From contig CAUYUJ010000740.1 in assembly GCA_963575745.1 (NCBI GenBank), positions 18,501 through 82,500 on the forward strand: a stretch of 64,000 nt of DNA. Direction: 5' to 3'. Positions within the stretch are counted from its first letter, which is position 1; the number at the start of each line of letters is the position of its first letter. The stretch comes from Prorocentrum cordatum (taxonomy: Eukaryota; Sar; Dinophyceae; Prorocentrales; Prorocentraceae). The notes under the pieces are model-generated. The model was not told the origin of the DNA. It was given only the letters and a program-made list of their open reading frames with translations, and made no database searches. Of the stretch, positions 32,519 through 58,089 are shown piece by piece. Made by a program: the position numbers and the translations under genes.

Positions 32519-32607
32519 GTGCCGCTTTGGGTGGGGCTCCTTATGGGGCCACGAAGGCGTGCCACGAAACGCTGTCCTGGGCGTGCGGGACGCATGAAGC
32601 GGTAGCA

Positions 32608-35560: not shown

Positions 35561-35641
35561 GTGACGAGGGAGGGGGCAGCGGGAGGAAGGAAGGAGTGAA
35601 TGCGGGGCGCTGTTTCTTCAAAACGAAGACCCAACACCACA

Positions 35642-39953: not shown

Positions 39954-42900
39954 TCAAGGACCTTGCGAAGTGACAAGGTTTCGGCGGGCGGCCGCAAGTA
40001 GGGCAGGCCAAGCGGCGGGGCCGACTTGGAGAAATGAAGCGACAAGGCGGTCGCTGGCGGTGGCGAAGAACAGGATCCGCGCCCGTGCGGGCACGGGCAG
40101 CGCAGCAAGAACTGTGGAAGCGGCGGCGGCTTGCAGGTAGCGCTCAGCACTGGAAGCCTGACGCCAACGCCCCCGCCAGAAGACGCGAGGGACGTCTTCC
40201 GTAGCGATATAGAAGTCTGTTGCGCCAGAGCCCCGCAGACATGCGGGCGTCAGGTTGAGCCCCTGACCCGCTTTGGCAAGAGGGACGCCCAGGGCCGAAA
40301 GCAAATGATTCCACCGAGTACGGAAGCCGCTCGCACCGAAAGGGGCGAGAGGATCGGTGGAAGCCAACCGCCCAAACACTTGATTCAGAATCTTCACCGT
40401 GCCCCGATCGGAGCAGCGAGCATGCTGCGTCGGGTACGTTCTCCTGGTCTTTGGAACAAGAATCGAAAGAAAAGCATCCCCTTCAACTTCGAGGCGGTCG
40501 CAAGGAAGCGACAAGTCACAGCGGCGTGACGCCAGCAGCTCGCCAGGCCTGAGGAACATCGTAAAGCCCATGAGCAGCAAGGCCGCCATCACAGGCCAGT
40601 CCCAGGCGAAACAGAGACCGACCATAGCGCGCAGCAGAGCGCGAGGTAAGGGCGGGCGGAGCTTTGGCGGCTCCGCGAGCTTCCATTGTTTCGCTACGTC
40701 CCAAGCTTCTGTTAGAAAGGCCTTCCAATGCGGATGAGCGCTCTGGATTCCCAAGATGGCATGAACCAGAATATAATGAGGGAAACCTGCATCATGAAGC
40801 CACACGCCGAAGGTCGCGAGGAAGCGGGCGAGAAGTATCCCGCTACGGTAAAGAGTGGCGGGCGGCACGCCAGTGTGTTCTGCTAACCACAGTTCGAACG
40901 CATCAATCGATCTCGAGCGACGATCGAGATACGCGGAGGTGAGGTGAGAATCGCGCACGAAGGGAGTGCGCGGAGGGCGAGCGGGCGCGGAAGGCGCAGC
41001 CCGACTAAGCCCTTGGCCTGCGGTCGGCGCCGCGGCTCCCAGAGAGATGCAGAGGCCGCAGACGCACCACAGGATGAGCGCAGGGCGGCCAGGGCTGGGA
41101 GAGCTGATCAGCGTGGCGGCCCTCCTGCTCCTGGACGCGTAGAAGGGCGGAACGAGGGTGTCCCGCCCGTCGGTCTCGAACCCCGACGCCTCCGCCAGCA
41201 TCGCCCGCGCCGAGGTGAAGGATCCGCCCATGTTACGGTGAGCACGGCGAGCCCCTGCTTCGATCTCGGCGGGCAGAGCGTCCCCTCCCTCGAGGGTCGC
41301 CCAGTCAAAGGGCGGGCGCGGCTCGGCGCGCGCAGCTGCGGCCGATTCGGCGAGCTCGGAACGAGCTGCCGAGGACGTGAGGCCCGAATGATGTGGAACG
41401 GGCACCACCTCCGCGAACGCGTCGAGGATCTCGGACGGAGGGGAATGAGATCCCCACAGCGCTGCTGGGATGGCGCCGTGACCGTCCTGCACGTGGTACA
41501 GAAGGTCGAAAAGGCAGGCCAACTTGCCCGCGCGCCTCCTGTGCTCGATCTTTGAGCCGAGCCCGATGCCACGGATGGCGCCCGCCCCCATGGCTTGGAG
41601 GTCAGCGCCCGCGGGGATAGCCTCGGGCTCGACGGCGGCCACGTAAGGATGCAACCACGAGGCTTCGTCGATCGGCTCGGCGCCGCCTGTCTGAAACAGG
41701 CGCTTATAGGCGTGCAAGGCCTGCAGGAGGCAGTGCAGGTCATCTCTGCCCTCGGGCTCGGCGGCCCCTGCGGGTGCGAAAGACCTCAGCCACGACGCCG
41801 CGCTCTGGAAGGCAGCTTGCCAGGCGGGTCCCCACCTCACCACTGTGACCTTCTCACCGCCGAGGTTGAGACGCCACGCTAGGGCGGTGGCGGCCCCTGG
41901 AGGCAAGGGCTGCTCAACGGCCGCGGAGGCCGTGCGCCGCGCTGCGAAGGCTGCAGCCGCGGCGCTCCCAGCGTCGCCGCTGTGGGAGCCGCTGGGATGC
42001 AGCTCGTGCCCTGAATCTCGGCCAGGCGCGGGGCCGCTCGAAGACCCCCTTTCCTCGGCGGCACGCCCTCCGCCCTGCGGGGCCGCAACAGCATCGCTGG
42101 AGGAGCGCGTGCCTACCGAAGACTGAGGGGCCTGAGCAGCGGAGTCCGCGCGGGAGCTGCCTGCGTGGGCGTCGCCCGAGCTCGCACCATGGCGGGACGT
42201 GGCTGGCCGCTGCGCAGTAGCGGGGCTCGGGCGCCGCTTCGGAGCGACTCGAGGGGAGCGCACCTCGCGACGCCGAGGCGACGTCGCCTGACGCGAAGGC
42301 GCGCGAGAGGAGCCGCGCGCGACGGCCCGACTAAGCCCCTGGCCTGCGGTCGACGCGCGGGATCGCGACGCCGCACGCCCACCAGAGTGGTGAGGGGGCG
42401 GCGGCGGCGGCGGGGGCACGGGCCGCGGAGTCTCGGAGCCTACACGCGTGCCGCGGCCCCGAGAGCGACTGCGAACCGAGGCGCGAGCGGCGGGCGGAGA
42501 GGCCCCCGAGCGGCGAGGGAAGGCCGCCTGCAGGCGGCGGAGGACCTCGGGGTTCAGGCCCGCCACGACGCGCTCGAGGTCCATCGAGGAGTCTGCGAGG
42601 GCACTCAGCACGACGTCCTCGAGCCCCGTCGGTGAGTCCTCGTCGCACGCGGGCTCCGCTCTCGAGCGGCTGCGAACGCTCGCGGGCGGGGGCCCGTCTG
42701 GAGTGTGCGGGCCCTCCGATGCCTCCCCCGCAGGCGGCTCCGACGGCTCCTCGGGCGAGATCGGGCCGTTGACGGGAGGCGACGAGCAGCCCCCCGAGGG
42801 AGAGGTGCGGTCGGTCCCGTACGGGTTTGGAGACCGCGTACGGCTGCGGGCAGGGCTGCGGCTCCGCGGTGGGGAGCCCACTCCCGCGGCGGAGCTGGGG

Positions 42901-45900
42901 CGTGCCGCGCCTGCCCAGCGGCGCGCATTGGCAGTGCGACGCGCCCTGCGGCCAGGCGCCGTGGCGGCCCCCCCCTCAGGGGCGGGGAGCGCCGCCATCG
43001 AAGCCCGCCGCTGCCTGGCGGCGCGCCTGGTGCGCGCGGCGCCCGTGCGCGAGGCGGAGTGCGGCGCGTGACCACCGCGGTTGGGCTGGTCCTCGACCGC
43101 TTCATCCCGCGGGCCCAGGCGGGCGCGGACCGCGCGCCGCTCACGACGGCTGAAGCTGGACGCAGGGTCGTCGGCGGGCCTTGCCAAGGCGCGCGGGTCC
43201 TCAGCCTCCACCTCGGCCAAGGAGCGGCCAGTGGACGACGCGGGTGCGTCCCCAGCACGAGCGGCACGTTCTGCGATGGCGAGGCCCGTCGAGACCTCAG
43301 CGTTGTGCAGGACGGCGCGCAAGGTTTTGCGCCAATCCCGACCCAGCTGGACGGGAGCAGTGCGCGGCAAGCCCGCGGCCTCTCGACTGGCGGCCTCGCG
43401 CACGCGTCGGAAGTAGGCGCGATCGGCCATCCCTTCCGCGAGCTCGGCACGAGCGACGGCACGCTCTCCTTCGCCGCGTGCAGGAGCCTGCACCGTGCGC
43501 CTGGTGGCGTCGGCACGCGCGGTGCGGAGTGCGTCGAGCTCCACGCGGCCGCGCGACACGGCGGAGACGAGGGTGGCATCCGACTCAGCCGCCCGCGTCG
43601 CGAGGGCAGACGAAACCCCGCCCCTCGGGAGAGGCGCGCCCGAGGCGGGGAGGGCAGCCCGAGGGGCCAGCTCGGCGCTCGCAAGGGCGACCCGCGAGGA
43701 GACCGCCTCTTCGAGCGCCTGAAGGGCCATGGTCGACCCTGGAGCCAGCTTGCCCTTGCGGGCGCCCTTTCCTGCCGCCTTGGCCCGGGCGTAGGCGCGG
43801 GCGGCAGGACCGTCGCCGCCCGTGCTAGGAACATCGGGCGGCGCGGCGGCCTGCGAGACGGCCTGGAGCAACACTGACTTGGCGTCACAGAGCTGCTTCC
43901 ACTTCAGCGCGCGGGCTGCTCGCTCGTCGGCGCCCAGGTGCGCGGGAGTCCTGTCTGGATGGTAGACTAGGGACTGGCGCCTGAAGGCGGCCTCAATTGT
44001 GCCGCGCGAGGCCCCGTCCACTACGCCAAGCAGTTGGCGAGAGGCGCTCACCCTGGCCGCTCGCTGGAAGGTGCGGGGGGTAGCTGCTGAGGCCCCCTTT
44101 GGCGCTTCCCGCGAGCCGACGCGCGACGAGCCCACCCCGATAGCAGGCGGAGGGGCCGCCGCGGCCTTGGAGCGGAGGGCCAGTGGCGGAGCACGCTTGG
44201 CGGCCTGGGGAGCCGATCCTGCGCTGGCGGCGCCAGGGTCGGGGCCGGGCGAGCCGCCCTCCGCGGAGGCAGACGCTTTTGGCGTGGCGTCTGCCGAGGA
44301 CGCGAGAGGCCGTTCGCTGTCAGCGAAGAGCGCGTTGCGAGGCCCGCGACGCTCTCCGCTGGCGAGAGCAGCTTCACTGCTGCTCTCGGCGGCGCCCGAG
44401 GGGTCAGGTGCCTCCCCCTGGGCGCCGTCGCTGGCGGCGTCGGCGGCCATCCCCGCGCCCTCCGAGGGGGGGGGGGCGGCCGCCCAGCGGTGGCTGAGCA
44501 GCCCCTCGGGGCCTCGAGCCACAAGCTGCGCAACAAATCGGCCCCAGAGACAAGTAGGGAATGACGAGCGGGAGTCGGCGTACGCAATGCAATCAAAGCG
44601 AGTAAATTCTCCTCTCTCTGCTTCAACTAACCAGGCGGGAGGGTCACGGGACGGGGGCCTCACCGCACGGTTCCGCGTGGGGTCGTCGGCCCTGTGCACG
44701 TCCGTAGGCACGTACATGCCTCCCATATATAAACCTCCTCCTATCACATAGGGCAAAGTGGTCGAAAGAACGTGAGATAGACCAGGAGAGCTACTGCGCC
44801 CGTGAGCGGTCGCGCCCAAAGCCACTTTTGAATCCAAGAGAACGGGGATACGAGAGTCAGGGAGGCGAATACAGCAGTACTTGCACAAGCTCTTATACAC
44901 CGTTGTCTCAAGGATATTGATGTGACGGGGCATGCGAAACTCCCATTTGTACGCGAGCCGAAAGCGCAGCGCCTCTGATAGCTCGGTGACCCAACGCGGC
45001 GCGACGGGGGGCTCAATAGACGGGAGCCCCAGGTCGCGATGCAGTTGGGTGAGCTCAGGGCCCAAGGGCACGCCGCGGCTGAGTACGGCGAGGAGGCTCC
45101 GATTGTGCAGGATCGTGTGCCACCCCCCGTGCTCCGATCTGCGCCACAGCTCGGCGGAGAGCTGCGGGCTGATAGGAGCGCGGACAACGCCCCCCCAGCC
45201 GAGAGACGCGTCCGTACCGAACACCTCGGGGCAAGGCTGCGCCCGAAGGTCGGTTATAGCCGTAAAGGCTAAAAAGGTGCAGGCCAAAAGCTCGTCGCGA
45301 ACATAAGGAGGCAAGTCGTATTCAATGCCCTCCTCGGTCGCCAGGCGCGACAGGAAGTTGTAGACGTGCGTGAAAATGGCGAGCATCGGACGGCGATAGA
45401 GGAACACCTGGACCCAGCAGCCCACAAGAGAGGCTAACAGGGAGCGTGTGGTGATGCCGAGGTAGATTTGGATCAGGGTCAGCCTGCACAAGGCCACCGT
45501 CCGCACTAAGGGAGCGCAGACGATGCCTATGCGCCCTTCCACCTCGGCGCCCACCACCACCTTGTGCGTTTCGCCGCGCGCGCGCTTGCCTGGATGCTGA
45601 ATCAGGCCCACGCGCGGGTAGCCTGCATCGCAGGCGGCGAAGACCTCACGATCACGACGACAGGGGTCGTCGGGGCGAGGAGCGGAGCCATGCCACGAGA
45701 GCTTCTGAAAACCTGTATGGTCATCAATATTCAGCATCTCGACAAACGGTCCCCGCGGGAAGGGCGAGCGGTGGACAACCTGCTCGTGAGGCCGCAAGGC
45801 CCCGAAGCTGTGCAAGACGCCTTCATGTGCAGAGTTGGCAATCTCCACCGCCATGTTGTCGCCCATCGCTAGAGCATTGAGGCAAGGCGCGACGTCCACA

Positions 45901-48900
45901 CCTTCGAGCTCGGGGCGCCAGGCTCGAAAGGCCTTGAAGCGGGATGATGGCAGACGAACGCGAAGGGCGTTACGCCTGGCGCGCGCGGGAGGAACGCGGA
46001 AAGTGTAGTAAAACTCCCGTAGGTCGTCGCAAGAAACTGCCAGCCACTCCCCAGGCGCCAGACCCAAACGGCACAGCAGGAAACCCTGGCCAAGGCGCTG
46101 GGTGCTGGACGAGATTGAGGCACAGCGGCTGTTCACGACCGTTGGGTTCAGGATCAGCCTGTCGAAGTCGCTGTCCTTCGGTACCCTGAAAGCTCCGCAG
46201 GCTTCATCCCAGGCGAGGTCCGAAGCAGGAGTCAGGTACAGGGCGCCGCAGGCATCCCACTTCTGGAGCAGGGCCCACAGCTCGGCGCGGTCCATATGGA
46301 CACGCGCCCCCTTTTGGCCAGCAGGCCACTCTGACGCCGGGAGCCGCATCTCCTCTGGATTGATGAACGCTTCGCGGACTCGAGCGTCAGAGAGAAATGG
46401 AATGGGATCAAACACTGGCGAGTAATCCCACTTAATGCGAGACGCCCTGACTTTTAAATCGAAGGGCTCGACCTGGGTGGAGTCCCAAGCCGCCGCAGAC
46501 GCCAGCGAACCAGGCACGGAAGGAGCGCTGGTCGGGCAGTGCCGCATGGGGGCGGGCACGGAAGAAGAGGAGGTGAAGGAGGCCTCCAAAGCTGCAACAT
46601 GGGTGGCCAGGCCATGGAGCGAGACCTCAGTAGAGTCGAACTTGGCGAAGGCTCGACCTAAGTCGCTCTTGCCACCACGGGCAAGGCGAACTGCGATCCG
46701 ACACAACCGTTCGATACGGGTGCGGACGCCCTCCTGGCAGGGCGAGACCGTGGCGCGGACACGAGCCTCGGCGGGAGCGAGGCTAGGATGACCCAAAGTG
46801 AGCCAGTTCAACGCAATAACAGAATACTGCGCGAGCGTCCGCGCCGCGCGCCGCAATCTCCAGCGCTCCCTGCGCCTCGCCGACAAGCCGTCAGGCGGGG
46901 GACCAAGAGGTGGAGCAGGCGGGCACGGCCAAGGATCGCGGGGAGGCGGCCCCAAAAGGTACGGGTCGTCCCTGTCCATTGCACGCATTGATGAGCGGGA
47001 GAAAGATCCAAGAGAACATCGAGCACCCATCCCAACCTGGGACAGCGCTGCCGCCCAGTGGGTGATATCAATGTTCGCGCCTGGAAACAGGCGCAGCAAG
47101 GCAGACAAGTCAGCGACAAATGGCGCGACGTTGGCAAGAGCAGCAGGGGTGCTTGAAGGAGAACAAGCACCAGCAAGAACACCAACCTCAGGGGCTGCAG
47201 GCCCCATGGGGGGAGCGCTCGACTGAGGCAGGTGACGGCCAAAATGGCCGAATGGATCCGAGGGGCGGTTCGGAGCAGAGCGAGGGGCGTGGTGGCGGAA
47301 CGTACTCCTCCCTGCGGGGCCGCAACAGCATCGCTGGAGGAGCGCATTCCTACCCTCACGCCCTCGCTGCGCCCAAACACGCCTAGCAGCCGTAGCAGCG
47401 TCGGTGCAGACTGTCTGCGGCGGCGTACCCCGGCCACGCGAAGGCCCCCCACTGCCGCTGGCCCCAGGAGAGCTCTGGAAAGTCTCCTCCCGGCTCCGCC
47501 TGGTCGCCTCTGCTTGCCCGGGCCAGAGGCTCAGGGGATCTGGATCCTCTGGGAGGGGGGGGTCTATTCCCTCCTCGGTCCTCGCGTACGGCTTCTCCAC
47601 CACCTCGTCTTCCGAGCTCTCGTCGGAGTCCTCGTCGTCGCTCGTGGGTTCCTCCTCCGCCTTCTCGTACACGATTCTCTGGCGCTTCTTTGCGGGGGTG
47701 TCGTCCAGCTCCCCTGCTTTCACCATCTTGCGGGTCAGCTTCTCGAGGATGTCAACGTACTCGCTCGCGATCTCGCCTTGCTCCTCGTAGGGGGTGCCGG
47801 TCCAGCTCCGCGGTGGGTCCTCGAACATGGAGCTGATGCCCTCGATCAGGAGCTCCCGCGCTCTCCTTCTCCGATCAGGTCCCGTGGGATCGTCAGCTGG
47901 AACCCCGAGTAGGATATTCAAGATGCACTCCGCTTCGTGGCATTTGTTCTCCCCATCCAGGATGGCTGAGGGCAGCGGGGTCTCGTCCTCCCAGGCTGGA
48001 TCGAGAGGGGTGGCCGCGCCCTGCCCGCTGGGGGGTTCTGAGCTGGCCCGGCGGGGATGCCCGGCTTGCGCTTGCTCTGCTTCGCGCTTGCCGGCATCCC
48101 TCGCACGACGGGCCCGACGGCGCTCCTTAGCCTCTGCCAGCTGTATTTGCAGCTCCTTGATGCGCTTCTCCTCCTCCTCCAGGACACCCACCTCGGCGGC
48201 CTTGGCGGCTTCGAGCTTCCTCCTTATGCTCTCCAGCTTGATGCTGTCGGCTGAGCTGCCTCCGCTGCTGGACCCCCCAGCGGGCGCCTCGCGGCTTTGT
48301 CTCTGGAGGGCTTGGGCGGCAGCCTGCTGGAAACGCCTCCCTCCTGAGTGCGGCGGGGGGGCCCGCCTGTTCCAGACGGCGCCAAGCTCTGGGCTGCCAA
48401 AGCCCTGGGAGCTGACGCGGTCGGCGATCCTCAGCGTGACGCTGCGGTGGGACGCGGGGGGGGCCTCGCCGCGGTGCCCCGGCGCCTCCTCACGCTCCTC
48501 GTCCGCGGCCCTCTTGATCCAGCGCGGCGCCCAGGCCGCCCAATTCTCGATGTCCTCTTTCCCGATCCACAGGATCAGGCGTTCCCCGGGCTCGACGCGA
48601 TCGTCGTCTTCTAAGGGAGGTCCCTCGGCTCCTGCGGTGTCCCCCTCGTCGGTGTAGACGAACAGGCGAAGCTCCTCGGGGCTGAGGACGTCGTCGCGCA
48701 GCCATCTGCAGGTTATGAGGACGCTCTGGAGCTCGTGCGCGTACATGGGGGCCCCCGGGATTGGTATCCATCGGCCCCCACGCTGTGGAAGGATCACCTT
48801 GACTGGCTCATCGGCTTGCTGCTCGGCTTGCCTGGACTTCTTGACCCTCCTGGGCGGCTCCTTCTCTTCCTCTTCCTCCTCTCCTTCCCCTTCGTCTCCC

Positions 48901-50405
48901 CCAGGTTCGTCGTCTCCGCCATCTCCTCCAGGGCCCGGTGGTGGTGCTCCTCGGTCGGGATCCCTCTTTCTCGCCTTGTTGCGTTTCCACCCTCCTCTCT
49001 TCTTGCCTCTGTTCGCGCATTGCCATCCTCTGAGCTCAGCTGGATGGTCCTCCTCCGCCTCCTTCTCCGTGACTGGCCCGTCCTGGAAGCGAAAAGGAGG
49101 GGGGGGTTCCGCCAGGTGAACCCCGTCACCGGCTCCCGCCGCCATCTTGTCTCCGGCCCTCGTCGTGACGATGGGCTCAAGCTTCTTCAGGAGCTTCGCG
49201 GGGGAGGTCCCCGCCCCCGCAGCCTTGATGACCTCGGCCCAGGCAGCGCACAGCCTCGTCGGGCACTGGCCGGCGTAGCGGGTGCGACGTAGTCCACGCT
49301 GACCGACCTGGAAGCCGAGGGTGCTCAACTCCTCCCGCAGTGCCTTGGCCAGTGGGGGAGCTCCGCTGAGGACGCGCCCGCCACCGTGCAGGCACGGGGG
49401 CGACCGGTGTGAGATCTTGGCCACGAAATTGTCGGCCCGATCACGCCCGTAGTACAAGGCCACGGCGCCCTCCGGGAGGTCCTCGAAGGCCTTCCCGGTG
49501 CGTGGCTCGACCCGGCTCCAGTGGAAGTTCACGGGCCCCAGCTTGCCGACGAGGTCGTTCAGCGGGCGCAGCAGCTCGGGTCCGAGCTGTGGGGTCTCCA
49601 GGGTCTTGGTATCTGCGGCGAGACCCTGAGCCTGCACGCCTGCCAGGGCTAATCGATTGGTCAGGCTCAGGATGTCCTTCTGCTCGGGCTGACTGAGCGA
49701 GGGCGTGGAGGAGTTGTAGTGGTCGATCTGGGTCTGGGTCAGGTCGTAGGGGAGAGGCCCCTCCAGGGCGACGCGTTCGTGCTGGTTGGTGCAGCGCCTC
49801 GCCAGAGAGAGCGCCCAGGGGTAGAGGCCCTTCGAGACCATCCAGAACGTCAGCTTGCGGTGCCGTTTCGCAGGCTCCTCTGGGGGCCCTAGCCCCCACT
49901 CGCACATGGCGACGGAGATAATCCGTGCTCCTGTGCGCTTCTGCAGCTGCCTGATCCTGGCCCTGTCCCAGATCTTCGGGTAGCGTCCGTCGCTGGCCGT
50001 GTTCTCGAGCATCCACTCTCGATCGTTGGCGTCGAGGCGCTCGCAGAGGTCGGCGGCGAAATCGGTCATGATGTTGCTGTCGATCTCCGCCTGGACCGTC
50101 CCGTCGCCGTCCGGGTGCTCAAACGTGCGGGTCCCGCCGTTCTTGAGGCACCAGGCTGAGTGGGTCGTGCACGGGGGGGCCAACTGGTAGACGTTCGCCT
50201 CGTCGGGGCCTGGCGCTGCCCCAGCGTCGAGGAGGAGCCTCTCTCGCACTTGGGGATCGAGGATGTCGTGCTCCTCCTGGGGCCCGGTCTGGGCCAGGGG
50301 GTCCTGGAAATACTCGACGGACGGGCCGTCTGGAGTCCAGCTTCTCGCATCGCCTTGGTCCAGTTCCCTGTCCCTGCGAAGATCTCGCGAGTGCGGATGC
50401 CCCAC
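39954..50405 (-). CDS. ORF2 polyprotein: MTase-like (C-part), RT, RNase H, J-domain, tyrosine recombinase
   Basis: 3483 codons. Residue 1 is only the first Met of the frame; residues 1-23 are not protein-like, and translation probably enters by a -1 shift from ORF1. Domains: MTase-like 26-220 (APPCTTHSAWC, Cys 79; LENTASDGRYPKIWD; MCEWGLG); acidic run ~490-515; coiled-coil ~720-765; RT ~1340-1640 (SCDDLREFYYTF; LAMGDNMAVEI; LNIDDH, catalytic DD at 1561-1562); RNase H ~1725-1910 (FGTDAS, Asp 1732; NILETT; LLDSKVAL; RADDPT); J-domain ~2115-2185 with HPD at 2149-2151; a long Ser/Arg/Pro-rich linker to ~2900; tyrosine recombinase ~3120-3483 (FLRPGEL, Arg 3286; LVPKTRR; LRGSGATD, Arg 3391; AERYLQ, Tyr 3423). 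The polymerase, RNase H and recombinase residues are all present. Usual DIRS pol proteins are far shorter. The J-domain and linker are additions. Confidence 0.85.
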   Translation of the reverse strand: MGHPHSRDLRRDRELDQGDARSWTPDGPSVEYFQDPLAQTGPQEEHDILDPQVRERLLLDAGAAPGPDEANVYQLAPPCTTHSAWCLKNGGTRTFEHPDGDGTVQAEIDSNIMTDFAADLCERLDANDREWMLENTASDGRYPKIWDRARIRQLQKRTGARIISVAMCEWGLGPPEEPAKRHRKLTFWMVSKGLYPWALSLARRCTNQHERVALEGPLPYDLTQTQIDHYNSSTPSLSQPEQKDILSLTNRLALAGVQAQGLAADTKTLETPQLGPELLRPLNDLVGKLGPVNFHWSRVEPRTGKAFEDLPEGAVALYYGRDRADNFVAKISHRSPPCLHGGGRVLSGAPPLAKALREELSTLGFQVGQRGLRRTRYAGQCPTRLCAAWAEVIKAAGAGTSPAKLLKKLEPIVTTRAGDKMAAGAGDGVHLAEPPPPFRFQDGPVTEKEAEEDHPAELRGWQCANRGKKRGGWKRNKARKRDPDRGAPPPGPGGDGGDDEPGGDEGEGEEEEEEKEPPRRVKKSRQAEQQADEPVKVILPQRGGRWIPIPGAPMYAHELQSVLITCRWLRDDVLSPEELRLFVYTDEGDTAGAEGPPLEDDDRVEPGERLILWIGKEDIENWAAWAPRWIKRAADEEREEAPGHRGEAPPASHRSVTLRIADRVSSQGFGSPELGAVWNRRAPPPHSGGRRFQQAAAQALQRQSREAPAGGSSSGGSSADSIKLESIRRKLEAAKAAEVGVLEEEEKRIKELQIQLAEAKERRRARRARDAGKREAEQAQAGHPRRASSEPPSGQGAATPLDPAWEDETPLPSAILDGENKCHEAECILNILLGVPADDPTGPDRRRRARELLIEGISSMFEDPPRSWTGTPYEEQGEIASEYVDILEKLTRKMVKAGELDDTPAKKRQRIVYEKAEEEPTSDDEDSDESSEDEVVEKPYARTEEGIDPPLPEDPDPLSLWPGQAEATRRSREETFQSSPGASGSGGPSRGRGTPPQTVCTDAATAARRVWAQRGREGRNALLQRCCCGPAGRSTFRHHAPRSAPNRPSDPFGHFGRHLPQSSAPPMGPAAPEVGVLAGACSPSSTPAALANVAPFVADLSALLRLFPGANIDITHWAAALSQVGMGARCSLGSFSRSSMRAMDRDDPYLLGPPPRDPWPCPPAPPLGPPPDGLSARRRERWRLRRAARTLAQYSVIALNWLTLGHPSLAPAEARVRATVSPCQEGVRTRIERLCRIAVRLARGGKSDLGRAFAKFDSTEVSLHGLATHVAALEASFTSSSSVPAPMRHCPTSAPSVPGSLASAAAWDSTQVEPFDLKVRASRIKWDYSPVFDPIPFLSDARVREAFINPEEMRLPASEWPAGQKGARVHMDRAELWALLQKWDACGALYLTPASDLAWDEACGAFRVPKDSDFDRLILNPTVVNSRCASISSSTQRLGQGFLLCRLGLAPGEWLAVSCDDLREFYYTFRVPPARARRNALRVRLPSSRFKAFRAWRPELEGVDVAPCLNALAMGDNMAVEIANSAHEGVLHSFGALRPHEQVVHRSPFPRGPFVEMLNIDDHTGFQKLSWHGSAPRPDDPCRRDREVFAACDAGYPRVGLIQHPGKRARGETHKVVVGAEVEGRIGIVCAPLVRTVALCRLTLIQIYLGITTRSLLASLVGCWVQVFLYRRPMLAIFTHVYNFLSRLATEEGIEYDLPPYVRDELLACTFLAFTAITDLRAQPCPEVFGTDASLGWGGVVRAPISPQLSAELWRRSEHGGWHTILHNRSLLAVLSRGVPLGPELTQLHRDLGLPSIEPPVAPRWVTELSEALRFRLAYKWEFRMPRHINILETTVYKSLCKYCCIRLPDSRIPVLLDSKVALGATAHGRSSSPGLSHVLSTTLPYVIGGGLYMGGMYVPTDVHRADDPTRNRAVRPPSRDPPAWLVEAERGEFTRFDCIAYADSRSSFPTCLWGRFVAQLVARGPEGLLSHRWAAAPPPSEGAGMAADAASDGAQGEAPDPSGAAESSSEAALASGERRGPRNALFADSERPLASSADATPKASASAEGGSPGPDPGAASAGSAPQAAKRAPPLALRSKAAAAPPPAIGVGSSRVGSREAPKGASAATPRTFQRAARVSASRQLLGVVDGASRGTIEAAFRRQSLVYHPDRTPAHLGADERAARALKWKQLCDAKSVLLQAVSQAAAPPDVPSTGGDGPAARAYARAKAAGKGARKGKLAPGSTMALQALEEAVSSRVALASAELAPRAALPASGAPLPRGGVSSALATRAAESDATLVSAVSRGRVELDALRTARADATRRTVQAPARGEGERAVARAELAEGMADRAYFRRVREAASREAAGLPRTAPVQLGRDWRKTLRAVLHNAEVSTGLAIAERAARAGDAPASSTGRSLAEVEAEDPRALARPADDPASSFSRRERRAVRARLGPRDEAVEDQPNRGGHAPHSASRTGAARTRRAARQRRASMAALPAPEGGAATAPGRRARRTANARRWAGAARPSSAAGVGSPPRSRSPARSRTRSPNPYGTDRTSPSGGCSSPPVNGPISPEEPSEPPAGEASEGPHTPDGPPPASVRSRSRAEPACDEDSPTGLEDVVLSALADSSMDLERVVAGLNPEVLRRLQAAFPRRSGASPPAARASVRSRSRGRGTRVGSETPRPVPPPPPPPPHHSGGRAASRSRASTAGQGLSRAVARGSSRAPSRQATSPRRREVRSPRVAPKRRPSPATAQRPATSRHGASSGDAHAGSSRADSAAQAPQSSVGTRSSSDAVAAPQGGGRAAEERGSSSGPAPGRDSGHELHPSGSHSGDAGSAAAAAFAARRTASAAVEQPLPPGAATALAWRLNLGGEKVTVVRWGPAWQAAFQSAASWLRSFAPAGAAEPEGRDDLHCLLQALHAYKRLFQTGGAEPIDEASWLHPYVAAVEPEAIPAGADLQAMGAGAIRGIGLGSKIEHRRRAGKLACLFDLLYHVQDGHGAIPAALWGSHSPPSEILDAFAEVVPVPHHSGLTSSAARSELAESAAAARAEPRPPFDWATLEGGDALPAEIEAGARRAHRNMGGSFTSARAMLAEASGFETDGRDTLVPPFYASRSRRAATLISSPSPGRPALILWCVCGLCISLGAAAPTAGQGLSRAAPSAPARPPRTPFVRDSHLTSAYLDRRSRSIDAFELWLAEHTGVPPATLYRSGILLARFLATFGVWLHDAGFPHYILVHAILGIQSAHPHWKAFLTEAWDVAKQWKLAEPPKLRPPLPRALLRAMVGLCFAWDWPVMAALLLMGFTMFLRPGELLASRRCDLSLPCDRLEVEGDAFLSILVPKTRRTYPTQHARCSDRGTVKILNQVFGRLASTDPLAPFGASGFRTRWNHLLSALGVPLAKAGQGLNLTPACLRGSGATDFYIATEDVPRVFWRGRWRQASSAERYLQAAAASTVLAALPVPARARILFFATASDRLVASFLQVGPAAWPALLAAARRNLVTSQGP

Positions 50406-53400
50406 GCGAAGGCGGGTCTGCGCAGGAGCGGTGCGAGGCCGGAGAAGTCCTCCTCCTCGAGCTCCTGGTTCCCGACGGCGCCCTCACGCGTTGGGAGCTG
50501 AGCCTGCTGCATACGTTTGCAGTGCATGCAGGGCGGGGGCCGGCTCGGGATCACGGGCCCCGCGACCTCCTCTGACTCCAGGTACATCTCCCAGCCAACT
50601 GTGAGTAGCTCGCGGACGGGTTTCCCAGCTAGCGTCCAGGTCTTGAGGATCTCCCCAAATGCCCGGCCTCGCTTGTTGGGACTCTGGCCGCCGATGACCG
50701 GTGGCCTGAGCACCCGCATATGCCCTCGGTGGATCATGACGTGGACCTCCCTCTCGCTGGTCTGCGTCGGCAGGACGGAGTCGATCTCGAGCTGGTTCCA
50801 GTGGTTGATCCTCCAGACCCGGACGGTGGTCGTGTTGAGGGCACTCAGGGGGAAGACCGAGATGCACCTGAAGTCCTTGTCGTGGTGCGGGTGCTGGACA
50901 TCATGGCAGTGCATCCGGAGCTCGGCTTCACGTGGTGAGACGAAGGGAGGTGCGCCCCCCAATGCGGCGGAGGCGGTGGTGGCTCCATCCCACAACTCGC
51001 GGCGGAGCTGAGCAGCCAGGGCCTTCACGGCCGGCGCGTCAGGCTCCTTATCCCCCCAAAGCAGGGCGGCCGCGATGTGGAGCACCAGACACTGCCTGAG
51101 CTCTGCGTCGCCTTCCTTGAGGCCGAGCCGGGTTCTCATCTCCTCGTCGGGCTGAAGCTCGTCCTGGAAGTCGAGATAGTCCCATTCTTGGTCTTGCACC
51201 GTGAGCTTCCCGCGGCCAACTCCAGCCTCCTCGTCCCAGGAGGCTCCTCCAATGCTGAGGTCCTGAGTGCTGCTCCTCCCTGCCTTTGATCCCAGCCTGT
51301 CGAGGGCCCGACCGGCTTCCTCGGCGAGGGTTGGCCCCCCGTCCCGAGTCGCCTCCAGCAGTACCTCCTCCAAGCTCAGGGAGGCGCCCTCTGAGCTGGC
51401 GCGTGCGAGCCTGGCCAAGGCGTGTGAATGCAGGTAGTCGCTGATGTCGCCCAGCGTCGCGATGGTCCCGCTCTCCAGGATCTTTTCGATGATGTTCCAT
51501 CTTTCGAGAGCAGCGGGATGAGTCGTCTCACTGGTCCCCTCCACCGCGGGCGCGTTGGCGTGGGCGTCCAGCAACCAGTCCCCCTCGGGGCCCTGGACGG
51601 CTTGCCTGAGCTCCTCCTCGAGGGCGGTGGTCTGAATCTCGTCGAAGGCAGCTGGGGGGGACCAAACAGCCGGCGAGCCTCCCGCTCGGCTGCCCCCCGC
51701 AAGGGCCCCGGGACCTTCTCCGGCGCCTCCCCCAGCCCTTTTGCTGTCTGCTTCGGCCTTGGCCTGGGCCCTGAGCTGAGCCACCCGCCCGTCGACCGAG
51801 GCGGGGTCGACCTTAGCGCCCGACTTCAGGCCGCCGCGCCTGATGAGCTGCGCCTGCACGGTCCAGTCCAGGCTGCCAAGCCCCTTGATGGCCTCGTGGG
51901 AGTGGGCGCAAGTCCCTGCCGCCTTGGGGCAGCCAGCCCATGTGCAGGCGTCCCAGCAGATGACCTTCCCGTTCTTGTCCCGGGGGGCATGCTTAACTGA
52001 GCGCCCGATCTCGCTGGACGTCAGCGCCTTCCCTGCTGGGTACGCCCGGGCAGCGGGCCGCTTCTTGGCAGCAGCCTTCTTGACGGCGGCCCCTGCCTTT
52101 CCAGTGCCTGGGCCAGCTCCGGTGGGCGCCTCCTGATCTGCTGGGGTGTGTTCGTCAGCCTTCCCAGCCTTGGGAGTCCTCGAGGGGCCGGCGTGGAGGT
52201 TCTGATGAAGGAACCTCTGAAGCCGCCGGGCCTGGCGAGGGACGCACACCACCTGGCAGTGCCCGTCCGGTGCGTCGAGGTCGTACACGTTCGGGAAGGT
52301 CAGCCACGCACTCCCCGACGGTCCTGTAGGGGCGAGGGCGATGGTTTTGATGTCCTCCCGGCGCGGGTTGGTGAGCCCCAGGATGCGGCACACCTCCCTT
52401 CGCTTTCCCCGAAGCTGCTCGCACCAGGTTGCAGCAAGCTCCTCCCAAAGGCTGTACACATAGTCTGCTGGGAAGGCCACGTCGTCCTCCTCGTAGGCAA
52501 GGCGGAGGGTCTCCAGGGCTCGGCGTCGCTCTGGCTCGTGCATTCGCCCGTAGACCAGCCCGAAGACGGTGATGGCGTTCTCGGCCTGCCTCACCCACTG
52601 AGAGAAGACGACCGGGTGCCGGGGGCGCGGCTCGAGCTTGCACGTGGTGGGCATGGTGTAGGCGTCGAACACCTCTGCTTTGCAATGGGGAAAATCGGCC
52701 ACGGAGATCGACCACTCGGCCAGATCCTTGTGGTCCCGCCCCCCCCAACAGAAGGCGGCGATGCCGTACGCCATCCGGTTCGTCACCGTCGTCGGCCAGT
52801 TCACCGCCTGCATCACGTGCTTCGCGTGCTCGCAGGCGCGCTTGAGGCCATGGAACAACTCCCGCCCGGTCAGGGCACCGCAGACCTCTACGTCGAGGGT
52901 GTCGCAGCCCCGCGCCAGGTACACGTCCAGTTCCTCGGCCCGTCCGATGGCGCCGAGGGTGCCCCGCTGCGCGACTTTTTCTTCCTCGCCGGACCTGCGG
53001 AGGCTGTCCACCGCCTGCAGCAGCCGCATGTTGTCCAAGTGCTGCTGTTCCTGACCGTTCTGGAGGACTTGCGCGCAGGTGGAGAAAGCGGCTGAGGGTT
53101 CACCTTCTCCGGCTCCTGCGGCGTACCTACGATCTGGCTGCCCTGGGGTTTTAACCAGTCCTCCGTGGCCATAAGCGCTCCTGTTAGTGAACATCTGCCC
53201 GAGATTCGGTACAAGGCCGGGCATCAAACCTGGCGGAGACAAACGAGTCGCTCCCGGCACGCGCACGCCAGGCGGGGTAGCCGGCGGCGGCAATGGCGGA
53301 GCGCTCGTGGCGGCGTCTAGCCCAGGGGGAACTCCAGGTTGGCTGGGCTCTTGGCTGGCATCGGGCTTGCGCTCGGTGTCTAGCTTCAAGAGGCCACTAG

Positions 53401-56400
53401 CGAGGGGTGGGTTCACCCCTTCATCTTTTTCGGCTCGAACCCGCTCCAACTTTCTTTCCCACCTGTCGATGTGCGCCTGGTACTTGGCCCGTTCCTCGGT
53501 CCCGCTGCTGCGCATGAGACGCTTGGTGTACTTGATGAGATGCTCCAAGACCACGGTGATGTCCTCGTCGTATCCTGCCGCCACGCTCTGCAGCGCCGAG
53601 GCGTCGTCCGATCCTTCTTCGTGAGCGGCGAGGTACAGCCCCAGCATGGCCTCCCCGGTGCTCTCCTCTTCGTGGTCCTTCCCCGCCGGGCTGCGCGAAG
53701 AGCGCCGAGGGGCCGAGGAGGCCAGATCACCCTCCTCGCCCAGGCCCCACCCGACGCCGAATGGGGGCTTGGGGGAACTGCTGCGATCGAGCCTCGCCCA
53801 ATGCTTCTTGAGTTGCGTGTCCAGCTCGTCGGAGGTGGGCTGCGGTACTCCGGGGGCATCACCCGAGGTGCCCGCTGGATGCCGGTACACGAGCAAGTCC
53901 CCGCGGGCCCGAAGCTGAGCCCACTGAGGGCGGCCGATACGCTTGGTCTTCCCGCCGACGGGGACCCCGTTCCAAGGACGCAGCTTCTCCCACATGGTGC
54001 TGCTCACGACGACGCCGCGCACGCCGATCCCCATCTCCTCGGCCCCAAGTGGTGGGTGATACAAGAGCTCCTCCAGGTAGCCTGCGGGGAGCCTTCCCTG
54101 GTCGCTGGCGACGGGGGCGTACTCGATCCCCGCGGTCTTGAGGGTGAAGCAGAAGTTCTCCTGGCCTTCCGCCGAATAGTCTTTGCAGTGCGGCTCCTCC
54201 ACGTCTACTACAGTCGTGCTGCCATCTCCGGTGGGCCCTCCCCCTGGACGGGACTTCCCCAAGAAGATAACCCATTGCGGGCCGGCGGCCCAGTGGACTC
54301 GCACGCGCAGTACGAGAGGGTCACCCTGCTCGATCTCCTCGTCGGGGGCGGGGCTGGCGTCTCGCGGGAGGGGCACCCTCGGAGAAGGCGGCGCTTCGAA
54401 CCTGACACCAACAGGTGGACCTCGCGGTGAAGCTGATGCCTCTCGTCGGTGTTGCCCAGGGGCTGCGTGTCCGCGGTGGCCCTCCGGTCCCCGTACTCCG
54501 TCTGCGGGGGGAGCTGCGTTGACTGGGACGCCCTGCTCGCGCGCCCGTGGGCTGCGACTGCGAACCGTCCGACGCCGCAAGCCCAAGCTCGAGAGGAATC
54601 CGCGGCCCGGGACGGCTGCAGCTGCCTGCACTGCTCGACCTGCTTCTCCACCCAGATGAAGAAGACATAGTGGTACGCCCTCTGCGTTGCCAACTGCCTG
54701 GCGGTAACAAGTCACTTGCGAGCATTTGTCACGATATCGAGATGCTCGGTAAACCTGGGCATGATGTGCGCAGAGATGGGCGAACGAATTCCGCCCGTCG
54801 CTGGGTGGCGGGAGGTCTGAAGCCTGCCCGTCTTCGAAGAGCAGGGTGGTCGGCTCTGCCTCCGCGGCGTCCCTGCAACCGTCGGGTGCCAAGGGGCGAG
54901 CGCCGCCATGTAGAACGATACCCACCCGAACAGCCTCACATGGCCTGTCCTCGGCCTCCACCTCCGACTCTGACTCCTGATCCAAAACTTCTGCGATGCT
55001 CCCTGCAACGCCTGGCTCCGCAGCGCCTGTCTTGCGACGGCGGCGTCGCCGGCAGCAAAAGGAACAACCGCAGGAGAGGATGCAGTAAAGGAACACGATC
55101 ACTTTCCAGATGGCTCTCCCCAGGTCGGCGACGGTCCGCCAGAGCAGGAAGACGCCCCGGCAGGAGGTGAACCTGGCGTGAGAGCCGATGTCCACGATCG
55201 CCTCGGAGTCCAAGGCAGCGTACTCTTTGCAATGAACTTCTCCAGGTTGATCTCTACAGGCCAGGTTGCGGCACAGGTGAATGGAACGGCCCTCGAGCGA
55301 CTCCAGTTTCTGACGGAGTGCGCGTGAGCTGGCCCCCTTCACGCCCAGGTAGTCTATCCAGAGGCCCTTCCGGTCGATCCGCTTGGGCTCCGAAAGGTCG
55401 ATCTTCAGCCGGGCTACGTGGTCGTCGATCTTGATCAGCACGTCGTTAGGCCGCCTCCCAGTCCCACGACCCTTCACCTTCTTGCTGTAGTACTCCGTGG
55501 TCGTGGCTGGTCCAGTCTCTGGCCCCATCCAATTGATCTGGGTAAGGGCAGGCGGAGCCGGCGGCAGGTACCTTTCGGCAGCTGCATCGCCAGGCTCTCG
55601 CCGGCGGCACTTAGTGCACCGCGCCAGTAGACCGATCAGCCAGAGGGCGGCGGCGCATGGGGCCAGTAGGGTACGACAGATGTGAGTGAGGAAAGCCAGT
55701 ACTGCCAGGAAAGTTAAGAGGATGAACGTCCATGCCACGGCAGGCCAAGCGGCCCCGAAGACCGTCAGGCCCAGCTTCTCGAGAGCATAGAAGAACCACC
55801 CACCATCCTTGGTCAGCCAGCCCGTCTCGGCATGGGTGGAGAAGGCGCTCCCAAGGCTGTCGAGCCTCTCGTAGGCGACTCCGCCCATGCCACTCAGGCG
55901 CCAGGCCCAGGTGCCCGCACGTAGAGGCTTCAATCCCAGCGCCCAGACACCCCAGCCGCCCACCCAGGACTCCTCGCTGCCCGGGTCCTTGGGGGGGTCG
56001 CTGCTGTTGTCGACTCCTCCGGCGGCCTGGGCTGGGGGCGGGGGCGGCGCTCCCGGCGGCCCACTGTCGGGCGGCGCCTGGGGGCTGCCTGCATCTCCAC
56101 CCTCCTCCTCGGGCTCGCCGATCTCCATGCCGTACTCGGAGTCGTCGTAGTACGGCACGGTGTACCCGAACGGGGCCTCCTGGGCCGCAGCCGGGTGGCC
56201 CCAACTGGCGCGGGCGACAGCGGAGCTGAGGGGCCCGCGCCAGTCGTGGGCGGCGGCGCTGGTGACCAGCGCGGCCAGCCCGCGGGCCGCACCTGCCAGC
56301 GCTGGGCGCCGGGCAGCCATGGCACGCACGCTTCCGGGCGCCGCAGGCGCCCAGACCTCCTGAGGTCGGCTCCAGGGCTTTGAGCCCCGAAGGCTTGAGC

Positions 56401-56437
56401 GGGAGAGAGGGAAAGGGAAGGGCAAGCAGAAGCTCAC
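50066..56437 (-). CDS. ORF1, Gag-like protein with TM segments, CCCH finger and MTase motif I
   Basis: 2123 codons. Met 1 is at 56437; Met 40 (56318-56320, MAARRPALAG) is an alternative. Hydrophobic segments: ~225-272 (VAWTFILLTFLAVLAFLTHI then AAALWLIGLLA) and ~430-466 (WKVIVFLYCILSCGCSFCC followed by a poly-Arg stretch). A Pro/Gly/Arg-rich middle is followed by a large helical region ~1100-1420 (ALTGRELFHGLKRACEHAKH; FSQWVRQAENAITVFGLVYG), the best candidate for capsid function. A C-x8-C-x6-C-x3-H finger at 1494-1514 fits nucleic-acid binding. Near the end, REIFAGTGNWTKAMREAGL (Phe at 2020) matches motif I of C5-MTases. After about residue 2033 the frame becomes meaningless and the sensible reading is in ORF2. 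Membrane segments in a Gag-like protein are unusual. Family assignment is by position and motifs only. Confidence 0.7.
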   Translation of the reverse strand: MSFCLPFPFPLSRSSLRGSKPWSRPQEVWAPAAPGSVRAMAARRPALAGAARGLAALVTSAAAHDWRGPLSSAVARASWGHPAAAQEAPFGYTVPYYDDSEYGMEIGEPEEEGGDAGSPQAPPDSGPPGAPPPPPAQAAGGVDNSSDPPKDPGSEESWVGGWGVWALGLKPLRAGTWAWRLSGMGGVAYERLDSLGSAFSTHAETGWLTKDGGWFFYALEKLGLTVFGAAWPAVAWTFILLTFLAVLAFLTHICRTLLAPCAAALWLIGLLARCTKCRRREPGDAAAERYLPPAPPALTQINWMGPETGPATTTEYYSKKVKGRGTGRRPNDVLIKIDDHVARLKIDLSEPKRIDRKGLWIDYLGVKGASSRALRQKLESLEGRSIHLCRNLACRDQPGEVHCKEYAALDSEAIVDIGSHARFTSCRGVFLLWRTVADLGRAIWKVIVFLYCILSCGCSFCCRRRRRRKTGAAEPGVAGSIAEVLDQESESEVEAEDRPCEAVRVGIVLHGGARPLAPDGCRDAAEAEPTTLLFEDGQASDLPPPSDGRNSFAHLCAHHAQVYRASRYRDKCSQVTCYRQAVGNAEGVPLCLLHLGGEAGRAVQAAAAVPGRGFLSSLGLRRRTVRSRSPRAREQGVPVNAAPPADGVRGPEGHRGHAAPGQHRREASASPRGPPVGVRFEAPPSPRVPLPRDASPAPDEEIEQGDPLVLRVRVHWAAGPQWVIFLGKSRPGGGPTGDGSTTVVDVEEPHCKDYSAEGQENFCFTLKTAGIEYAPVASDQGRLPAGYLEELLYHPPLGAEEMGIGVRGVVVSSTMWEKLRPWNGVPVGGKTKRIGRPQWAQLRARGDLLVYRHPAGTSGDAPGVPQPTSDELDTQLKKHWARLDRSSSPKPPFGVGWGLGEEGDLASSAPRRSSRSPAGKDHEEESTGEAMLGLYLAAHEEGSDDASALQSVAAGYDEDITVVLEHLIKYTKRLMRSSGTEERAKYQAHIDRWERKLERVRAEKDEGVNPPLASGLLKLDTERKPDASQEPSQPGVPPGLDAATSAPPLPPPATPPGVRVPGATRLSPPGLMPGLVPNLGQMFTNRSAYGHGGLVKTPGQPDRRYAAGAGEGEPSAAFSTCAQVLQNGQEQQHLDNMRLLQAVDSLRRSGEEEKVAQRGTLGAIGRAEELDVYLARGCDTLDVEVCGALTGRELFHGLKRACEHAKHVMQAVNWPTTVTNRMAYGIAAFCWGGRDHKDLAEWSISVADFPHCKAEVFDAYTMPTTCKLEPRPRHPVVFSQWVRQAENAITVFGLVYGRMHEPERRRALETLRLAYEEDDVAFPADYVYSLWEELAATWCEQLRGKRREVCRILGLTNPRREDIKTIALAPTGPSGSAWLTFPNVYDLDAPDGHCQVVCVPRQARRLQRFLHQNLHAGPSRTPKAGKADEHTPADQEAPTGAGPGTGKAGAAVKKAAAKKRPAARAYPAGKALTSSEIGRSVKHAPRDKNGKVICWDACTWAGCPKAAGTCAHSHEAIKGLGSLDWTVQAQLIRRGGLKSGAKVDPASVDGRVAQLRAQAKAEADSKRAGGGAGEGPGALAGGSRAGGSPAVWSPPAAFDEIQTTALEEELRQAVQGPEGDWLLDAHANAPAVEGTSETTHPAALERWNIIEKILESGTIATLGDISDYLHSHALARLARASSEGASLSLEEVLLEATRDGGPTLAEEAGRALDRLGSKAGRSSTQDLSIGGASWDEEAGVGRGKLTVQDQEWDYLDFQDELQPDEEMRTRLGLKEGDAELRQCLVLHIAAALLWGDKEPDAPAVKALAAQLRRELWDGATTASAALGGAPPFVSPREAELRMHCHDVQHPHHDKDFRCISVFPLSALNTTTVRVWRINHWNQLEIDSVLPTQTSEREVHVMIHRGHMRVLRPPVIGGQSPNKRGRAFGEILKTWTLAGKPVRELLTVGWEMYLESEEVAGPVIPSRPPPCMHCKRMQQAQLPTREGAVGNQELEEEDFSGLAPLLRRPAFAWGIRTREIFAGTGNWTKAMREAGLQTARPSSISRTPWPRPGPRRSTTSSIPKCERGSSSTLGQRQAPTRRTSTSWPPRARPTQPGASRTAGPARLSTRTATGRSRRRSTATS
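50315..50345 (-). other. ORF1/ORF2 frame-change point inside the methyltransferase-like domain
   Basis: On the minus strand GGACTCCAGACGGCCCGTCC is read L-Q-T-A-R-P in the ORF1 frame and T-P-D-G-P-S in the ORF2 frame. Motif I ends upstream in ORF1 and DGPSVEYFQDPL begins in ORF2, so the switch (-1) must occur here. I see no classical X-XXY-YYZ slippery heptamer. Possible causes: programmed shift, an indel or splicing. Confidence 0.6.
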
Positions 56438-56439
56438 GC

Positions 56440-57180
56440 TCTCCGAGCCCTAAGAAGGTCGGCGACGATTTTGCCGGCGAAATCCACCATGGATTTTATG
56501 TTCAACGATTCGCAACCATGCCAGACACCGCGCGCATGTTGTCGGGCGTACAAGCGCGAGCCCGCATTCTCGGCGGAGCGCGCATTCTTTGCCAACGCGC
56601 GTTATTGCAAACTGTTCCGTCTTTCTCTGTCCCTCCATTCGTCGTCCTCCTCCTTTCACCTCACTCGCCGCGTGGCGCCGATATGTTTCCATTGACATTT
56701 CGTATCGTATTAGTGTCTACATGTGCGCCCCGTAAGTTATTTGGTCTTGATCGAACCCGAGCTTATTGCTCGACTTCGGGGCTGTGGTTTGAGCCGCGAT
56801 CTGACAACCTCGAGTCGCCTTCTTCCTCCTCCACCCCTTCCTCTATGCTTCTTCTGGGGCGCCCGAGTGCGACACTTTGGTGATGTCGCGGCGGAATTTC
56901 GGCCGCGTTCTCAGGACAACCGTTTAAAGACAGTGTAATTCGACGGTGGTTTTCTCTCTTGCGTGCACGGCGGCATTCACGCTGCCCTCTCCTGCGCACC
57001 GAAGGCCTCTGCACCCGCAGGGCCGGTCCCCAGGGAAAATCGAAAGCCATCCCACAAGCCCTCTGGGCGGAGGTGGTTTGAATCGTTTCATCTTTCAACC
57101 TCCCTTTTCCCCTTCTGGGAATGATCTCCCCCCCCTTCCTCCATGGGTCTGGACCAGGGGTGCGGAGAGGCGTTCGAGCG
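56440..57180. other. 5' flank of the retroelement, no gene seen
   Basis: Mixed sequence of lower G+C than the element, with CGCGC-rich patches (56530-56610) and TCCTCC-rich patches (56640-56660, 56818-56840). It should contain the element's 5' non-coding region and border, but no repeat of the 39697-39784 spacer is visible to me. Confidence 0.4.
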
Positions 57181-57790
57181 TCCAAGATGACCTAATATAG
57201 CCTCAAGATGGCCTCAGAGACTTCAAGATGGCCCCCTATATGGCCTAACATTATTGAAGATAGCTCAAGATGGCTTCGAAGATGCTCCAATAGGCCCCAA
57301 GACCTCACAAGATGGCCTCCAGTGGCCACGGGCCCCCCCAGGGAAGCCCCCGACACGCCAAAATCATTCCAATACCTAAGGCGAAAACAACCATGGCTGC
57401 ATTCCCGCCTTTCCGCGCCCAATGGACTTCCGAGGCCTCCAGATGGCTCCAAGATGGCCCAAGAGAGCTCCAAGAAGGGCCAAAGAGGGCTCCAAGACGG
57501 TCCCAAAAACGCCCAAGAGCGCCCCAAGAGCGCCCCAAGAGAGCCCCAAGAGACGGCTGTGGGAGCTCTAGAGGGGCGACGCTGTTAGGGCCGCCCCCCT
57601 ATATTGATCGATATCCTCCAATATGGCCCCAAGAGAACGCCCAGGGCCTCCAAAATTATCCCAAGAGAGCCCCAAGGGGGCTCCACGTGGCTCCAAGAGA
57701 GCTCGAGATGACACCAAAATGGTCTCCAACATTGCATTCAGTATCCCGGGGCGGCTTCAAATGGCCACCAAGAACGCGACATGCTTCTCG
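57180..57790. repeat. CAAGATGGCC / CCAAGAGAGCCC degenerate repeat
   Basis: 57185-57330 is built from TCAAGATGGCCTC-type units; 57450-57720 from CCAAGAGAGCTCCAAGA-type units. Same family as 11761-11950. A stretch of non-repeat sequence with GGCGAAAACAACCATGGCTG lies between (57350-57420). Confidence 0.65.
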
Positions 57791-58089
57791 CCACCGCAGC
57801 CGTGAGGAACCCGGCGGAAAACCGCCGACGAATTTTTTACAGTCGATTTCAAGACCAAAAAAAATCCACGGCAGTTTCCCACGCAGTTTTTCACGCCACC
57901 CGTGTTCAAATTTGTCGGGCGGTCGTTGGCCGGCTGTTGGAGGCCCCCCAGGGGGCCGACAATTTTCGGGGCAGGGGGAGGTCCGAGGAGTTGTCGGGAA
58001 AATTGCCGCAACTCTGGGCGCGCCGACCCCTCCAGGAACCGTGGGGCGTTCAGGCAAAAGCCGCGCGGCAGGCATCCCACGGTGGCTCT

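Follow-up and report, generated by a model that had tools for sequence, protein, structure and literature searches.

C5-methyltransferase-like modules on either side of the reverse transcriptase-RNase H region in a DIRS-type retrotransposon of the dinoflagellate Prorocentrum cordatum

Background

Only rarely does a parasite turn the silencing chemistry of its host to its own use, and retrotransposons with a DNA methyltransferase of their own are such a case. In DIRS-1-like elements a Dam-like N6-adenine methyltransferase follows RNase H, and among host proteins a catalytic methyltransferase may be paired with a catalytically dead relative, as in DNMT3A-DNMT3L and METTL3-METTL14. C5 DNA methyltransferases (DNMTs) inside dinoflagellate DIRS-like elements have already been reported, namely in SymbioDIRS-Dnmt3 of Symbiodinium, and DIRS-1-like elements with a methyltransferase are mentioned in the same paper (PMC5890265). 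The DNMT of SymbioDIRS-Dnmt3 is detected by Pfam, groups with Dnmt3 and showed CG-methylating activity when tested, and the role proposed for it is methylation of cDNA before insertion (PMC5890265). Here, we describe a related element from the dinoflagellate Prorocentrum cordatum, which was met as a damaged copy in a stretch of 64,000 nucleotides (the window; contig C740, positions 18501-82500) and whose siblings were sought in a genome assembly of 4.128 Gb in 21,875 contigs.

The coding region of the P. cordatum element holds two C5-methyltransferase-like segments, called here the N-module and the C-module. With DIRS-1-like elements it has in common a methyltransferase after RNase H, the difference being that the C-module is of the C5 type by profile comparison. 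The nearest known system is SymbioDIRS-Dnmt3, which likewise combines a reverse transcriptase (RT), RNase H, a tyrosine recombinase and a cytosine methyltransferase under purifying selection, and which shares with a less damaged P. cordatum copy (C13644) the repeat order A-coding-B-A-B (PMC5890265). The recombinase occupies a separate open reading frame (ORF) in SymbioDIRS-Dnmt3 (PMC5890265), whereas it lies in the same frame in the P. cordatum element. The P. cordatum element also differs from SymbioDIRS-Dnmt3 in that two modules flank RT-RNase H, that neither of them passes the Pfam cut-off, and that the C-module lacks the catalytic motifs. The two-module layout is a new variant among the known DNMT-bearing DIRS elements, and no such arrangement was found in the open-licence papers searched, the sections of PMC5890265 consulted included.

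Precedents for a divided C5-methyltransferase are available from bacteria. M.AquI and M.EcoHK31I function naturally as split enzymes, and fragments of M.SssI, even overlapping ones, complement each other, with motifs I-VIII on one piece and the variable region together with motifs IX-X (or IX) on another (PMC3404938). The bacterial split enzymes are encoded by separate genes or are engineered fragments, whereas the P. cordatum modules belong to one retrotransposon polyprotein and hold a stretch resembling motifs VI-VIII each.

Results

Layout of the element

The less damaged sibling copies encode one polyprotein with C5-methyltransferase-like modules on either side of RT-RNase H. In the C13644 copy (L054, L055) a single frame of 4692 amino acids carries both modules, and the polyprotein order is a Gag-like part, the N-module, linkers, RT, RNase H, the C-module and a tyrosine recombinase. 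RT (LMDDG) and RNase H (TDN) were assigned by reading, the Pfam model RT_RNaseH reaching E 0.18 in the family of the window copy (family 1) and giving no match in L072, a member of a second family. The tyrosine recombinase matched PF00589 at E 1.7e-4 in family 1 and at 3.7e-5 in L072, both slightly under the curated cut-off; its RIGGAT...GRW signature was seen by reading, and it lies in RT's own frame in both L054 and L072. The ends of the C13644 copy are split direct repeats of 99% identity, arranged as A (133 bp), coding region, B (229 bp), A and B, and the B repeat pair was identified in L051 too. A still longer frame in C20766 (5540 amino acids) is not one polyprotein, because it enters a neighbouring copy through a masked stretch. 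The C-module was missed in the initial annotation of the window, as the window copy is without that part.

The C13644 element is bordered at either end by tandem arrays of a 101-bp unit (L054:1230-1797 and L055:7447-8507), and a related array (~76% identity) lies at window positions 37121-39143 beside a different element of the window, which is described below. Arrays of this kind are possibly a preferred target.

The C-module

Located after RNase H, the C-module retains R-x-R from motif VIII as well as a variable region and motifs IX-X, while DAP stands at the place of ENV and Pro-Cys is absent in seven of seven copies. It was present in every copy whose corresponding place was read (7/7), three of which were fetched blind at the predicted offset; two of these copies, L051 and L052, lie next to each other on one contig and are nearly identical. 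Compared by hhalign with a reference set of 58 C5-methyltransferases (14 from the same genome and 44 viral), the C-module was aligned over 198 columns covering motifs VI-X (template 221-462) with a probability of 93.7 and an E value of 2e-7. Its score of 57.5 was reached by none of 200 column shuffles (maximum 27.3), the reversed alignment scored 14.0, and 14 polyprotein segments from outside the C-module scored at most 26.0; a profile of the seven copies gave E 1.1e-6. With the Pfam model PF00145 the matches stayed below the cut-off, both on the family-1 C-module (E 0.12, profile 272-321) and on two family-2 C-modules (E 0.38 and 0.24, profile 122-163), for which UPF0180 was slightly better. 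Neither a protein search nor a PDB search with the C-module returned a match. The profile comparison shows the C-module to be homologous to C5-methyltransferases, whereas such homology is supported more weakly for the N-module.

The N-module

In the window the N-module is read on the minus strand across two long overlapping frames that stand in a -1 relation, ORF1 (56449-50066, 2127 amino acids) and ORF2 (50483-39954, 3509 amino acids). An upstream piece (50333-50464, minus strand) in the ORF1 frame contains motif I, FAGTG (50380-50366), and a downstream piece (49794-50318, minus strand) in the ORF2 frame contains, in this order, VEYFQ (50318-50304), HDILDP (50270-50253), PPC (50177-50169), LENT (50009-49998) and MCEWGLG (49907-49887), all on the minus strand; both pieces were located by tblastn and are kept in siblings. 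FAGTG in ORF1 and PPC, LENT and MCEWGLG in ORF2 had been listed in the initial annotation, and they were identified at the same places and in the same order.

With the sequence that follows the joint between the two pieces as query, a genome search gave 1020 candidates, of which 150 were scored, and all 150 scored places matched. Sixty-four siblings (9 + 55) were fetched, and both sides of the joint were located in them by tblastn; the sample is non-random, consisting of the nine best after the window's own match, of places spread along the list of 150, and of some others chosen for long frames. The whole domain lies in a single frame in 59 of the siblings, with 57 of these at 224 amino acids and one containing a stop. 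Among the 59 the Cys of PPC is present in 58, the Glu of motif VI in all and LENT in 58. Outside family 1, ENx is mostly ESS, so Glu is the general residue and N and V are not kept. The initial proposal of a C5-type methyltransferase-like domain inside a tyrosine-recombinase retrotransposon is supported by the conserved Cys and Glu; of the two motifs for which it had looked to the siblings, the PPC Cys and ENx, the former held, as did the Glu of the latter, while the N of ENx did not prove general.

Beyond the genome, a profile search with the N-module returned 18 proteins, nearly all metagenomic, and the metagenome relatives reach down to 35-36% identity. Of the 14 search proteins that extend over the place of the Cys, 13 have it (P0010 has Arg); Glu is present in 13 of the 14 that clearly cover the place of motif VI (P0011 has Lys), P0006 ending there without it. 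Two of the 18 deserve separate mention. P0001 consists of a glycosyltransferase-like first part (PF04101, Pfam) and the N-module as its second part, and is probably a chimeric contig. P0016, a EukProt protein filed under Pyramimonas sp., shares 94% identity with the family-2 domain along 31% of the query; culture contamination or transfer may be the explanation.

Three alignments were compared with the 58 reference enzymes. The first, for which P0001 was trimmed on account of its chimeric start, was judged too uniform. The second (N2, 30 rows, several of them trimmed) combined all search proteins except P0018 (17 of 18) with 12 siblings and L072, and scored 29.9, a value reached by one of 250 shuffles (an outlier at 138; the next best was 25.4). 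The third (A10, 12 rows) combined nine of the 18 search proteins with two siblings and L072, leaving out P0001, P0006, P0007, P0010, P0011, P0013, P0014, P0016 and P0018, and scored 28.6 with hhalign (E 0.0042), a value that none of 300 shuffles reached (maximum 24.4). In N2 and A10 alike, motif I and Pro-Cys fall on their counterparts in the reference enzymes. Six columns of A10 are invariant, the Cys among them, and the Glu of motif VI is nearly so. Local profile alignments reach only to motif IV, with a short additional match at motif VI, and a CEWGLGPP...K-T stretch was recognized by reading at the place expected for motif VIII. In the comparisons with C5-methyltransferase profiles the N-module showed no match to motifs IX-X, and no target-recognition region was seen.

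Second family and selection

A search with the metagenome protein P0002 as query (150 scored of 1349 candidates) identified a second family in the genome, whose 150 scored places are 58-63% identical to the query. In L072, which represents this family, the order of parts is the same and both modules lie within one frame. Between the families the N-modules are 58% identical and the C-modules 46-49%. The ratio of nonsynonymous to synonymous substitution rates (dN/dS) of the N-module across the 59 siblings is 0.38 in the bin of dS below 0.02; the four bins between dS 0.02 and 1 give, in order, 0.16, 0.10, 0.08 and 0.08. For the family-1 C-module it is 0.14-0.15 in pairs at dS 0.25-0.37 and 0.25 in the pair L274/L275, and the N-module in the corresponding copies gives 0.06-0.09, with 0.14 for L274/L275. 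Both modules are under purifying selection, the N-module being the more constrained. Chance open frames were rejected on the basis of this conservation and of dN/dS.

Discussion

How the two modules may act

We tentatively propose, at somewhat less than an even chance, that the two modules, placed around RT-RNase H, together form a bipartite C5 methyltransferase, which methylates the cDNA of the element before insertion. The N-module would be the catalytic subunit and the C-module its target-binding partner, the two associating within the polyprotein or after cleavage; once paired, they would place 5-methylcytosine on the element cDNA, which the recombinase would then insert. We infer the joint action of the modules, its substrate and its timing, and the step of methylation before insertion is carried over from the role proposed for SymbioDIRS-Dnmt3. 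The occurrence of both modules in a single frame, in the C13644 copy as well as in L072, favours such a joint function. A further reading, which we hold to be slightly less probable, is that one cytosine-methylating function has been divided between a catalytic module without a target-recognition region and a catalytically dead module with the variable region and motifs IX-X; split modules wrapped around RT-RNase H in this manner would couple methylation physically to cDNA synthesis. If true, catalysis and target recognition would have been separated and yet kept paired around the reverse transcriptase, and methylation of cDNA during its synthesis would become directly testable.

Several observations weigh against the bipartite proposal. 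Because a stretch resembling motifs VI-VIII is held by both modules, they are not merely the halves of a single enzyme, and for the same reason the comparison that fits more closely is with a catalytic module and its dead partner; the likeness to DNMT3A-DNMT3L and METTL3-METTL14, which are host proteins acting as separate chains, is an analogy only. No CpG depletion was detected as a trace of self-methylation, the value for the element being 0.85 and that for its flanks 0.80-0.82. Whole polyproteins gave no PF00145 match, the N-module gave none at E values up to 10, two of four further C-modules (both of family 1) were likewise without a match, and the Pfam cut-off was never passed by either module. 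As regards the alignments, the first N-module alignment was beaten by 13 of 200 shuffles (one of 60 once gap columns had been removed), A10 is not an independent test because it was built after the earlier shuffle results, and the N-module scores of 28.6-29.9 are modest next to the values of up to 26.0 obtained for 14 unrelated segments taken from these polyproteins.

A credible alternative, hardly less probable than the bipartite proposal, is that the modules are independent of each other. The C-module would then be a DNMT like that of SymbioDIRS-Dnmt3 which has decayed but was kept for nucleic-acid binding or for structure, and the N-module would be a separate small methyltransferase that works by itself on RNA or cDNA. 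The presence of a separate VI-VIII-like stretch in each module agrees with independence, and so does the position of the C-module: it follows RNase H within Pol, as the methyltransferase does in DIRS-1, and SymbioDIRS-Dnmt3 likewise has its methyltransferase in Pol (PMC5890265). In addition, the metagenome ORF P0012 has an N-type domain in a frame of 273 amino acids. Independence is harder to reconcile with the co-occurrence of the two modules in both families under purifying selection, and with the fact that the losses in the N- and C-module are complementary.

Assignment of the N-module

The N-module is probably a C5-type methyltransferase domain, and its separate acquisition, which the initial annotation had put forward, is possible. 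It appears unlikely that it represents an unrelated conserved domain whose likeness to C5 motifs at PPC and ENT is accidental. Such a domain would explain why no profile library recognizes the N-module (Pfam as described above; the NCBIfam search was empty), why PDB searches yielded weak or chance matches (DNMT1 once at E 1.1, nothing with alignment A3, and chance matches with A8 and A10, led by LpoA at E 0.047), and why every comparison with single C5-methyltransferases was weak. A chance resemblance is opposed by the joint register of motif I and Pro-Cys, which no shuffle of A10 equalled, by the invariant Cys and near-invariant Glu in that alignment, by the motif order I, IV, VI, VIII, and by the clear C5 module elsewhere in the same polyprotein. 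No relative was found in the viral contigs searched with the N-module.

Searches with PF00145 miss a large class of methyltransferase-like domains in dinoflagellate retroelements. The same genome also contains 129 PF00145 matches (3988 candidates, 123 scored), many of them in frames of ~380-480 amino acids that look like the DNMTs of LINE (long interspersed nuclear element) type reported in Symbiodinium.

Frame change at the joint

The initial annotation had regarded the domain as spanning a Gag/Pol frame change and its synthesis as possibly tied to frameshifting, neither of which is borne out by the siblings. The side with motif I and the side with PPC share one frame in 64 of the 64 fetched siblings, and the metagenome proteins P0002 and P0003 are also continuous across the joint; five siblings (L029, L035, L039, L059 and L064) change frame elsewhere in the domain. 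The window copy alone breaks at this place, within a stretch of the minus strand at 50319-50332, and its frame shift is best read as a private lesion or an assembly error. No classical slippery heptamer was identified within the overlap of ORF1 and ORF2, and three looser matches (50285, 50179 and 50178) all lie downstream of the joint. Programmed -1 frameshifting as the source of the full domain is extremely improbable and was rejected, since the two frames of the window copy do stand in a -1 relation but none of the 64 siblings shifts there and no heptamer is usably placed. The supposed frameshift requires no explanation.

The window copy and its surroundings

The window copy is a dead, truncated member of an abundant DIRS-order dinoflagellate retrotransposon. 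It extends on the minus strand from its 5' end at 56430 to a breakpoint at 47443 (47443-56430, blastn), and against three sibling copies it is 96-98% identical, every blastn match stopping at 47443. The 5' terminal A repeat is present in two parts on the minus strand, the first at 56374-56430 (58 bp matching the L054/L055 A repeat) and the remainder at 58929-59003 (a 75 bp match), being split by an insertion of ~2.5 kb (56431-58928) for which a 4-bp duplication, CAGA, was noted by reading. ORF1 contains a Cys-His zinc-finger-like stretch by reading alone, and a Pfam search with ORF1 and ORF2 gave no match apart from a sub-threshold DnaJ in ORF2.

As the copy is truncated at 47443, the 3509-amino-acid frame of ORF2 fuses two elements. 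The other one (39954-47442, minus strand) follows on from the truncated copy without a change of frame, and no sibling similarity was detected below 47443. RT-like and recombinase-like parts were recognized in it by reading alone, together with a DnaJ-like domain at ORF2 amino acids 2151-2207 (PF00226, E 2.4e-5, below the cut-off); a DnaJ domain within a retroelement polyprotein is unusual. The RT-like, DnaJ-like and recombinase-like regions of the window were considered as parts of the methyltransferase-bearing element and rejected, because sibling similarity stops at 47443 and the 3' part of the siblings differs.

Elsewhere in the window, a 90-bp-unit array with 32.8 copies and 88% matches occupies 32606-35561. 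Between 98 and 12644 the tandem repeats follow a pattern that is repeated ~6.7 kb further on (98/6814, 885/7562, 1986/8663 and 4399/10979), which suggests a large duplication.

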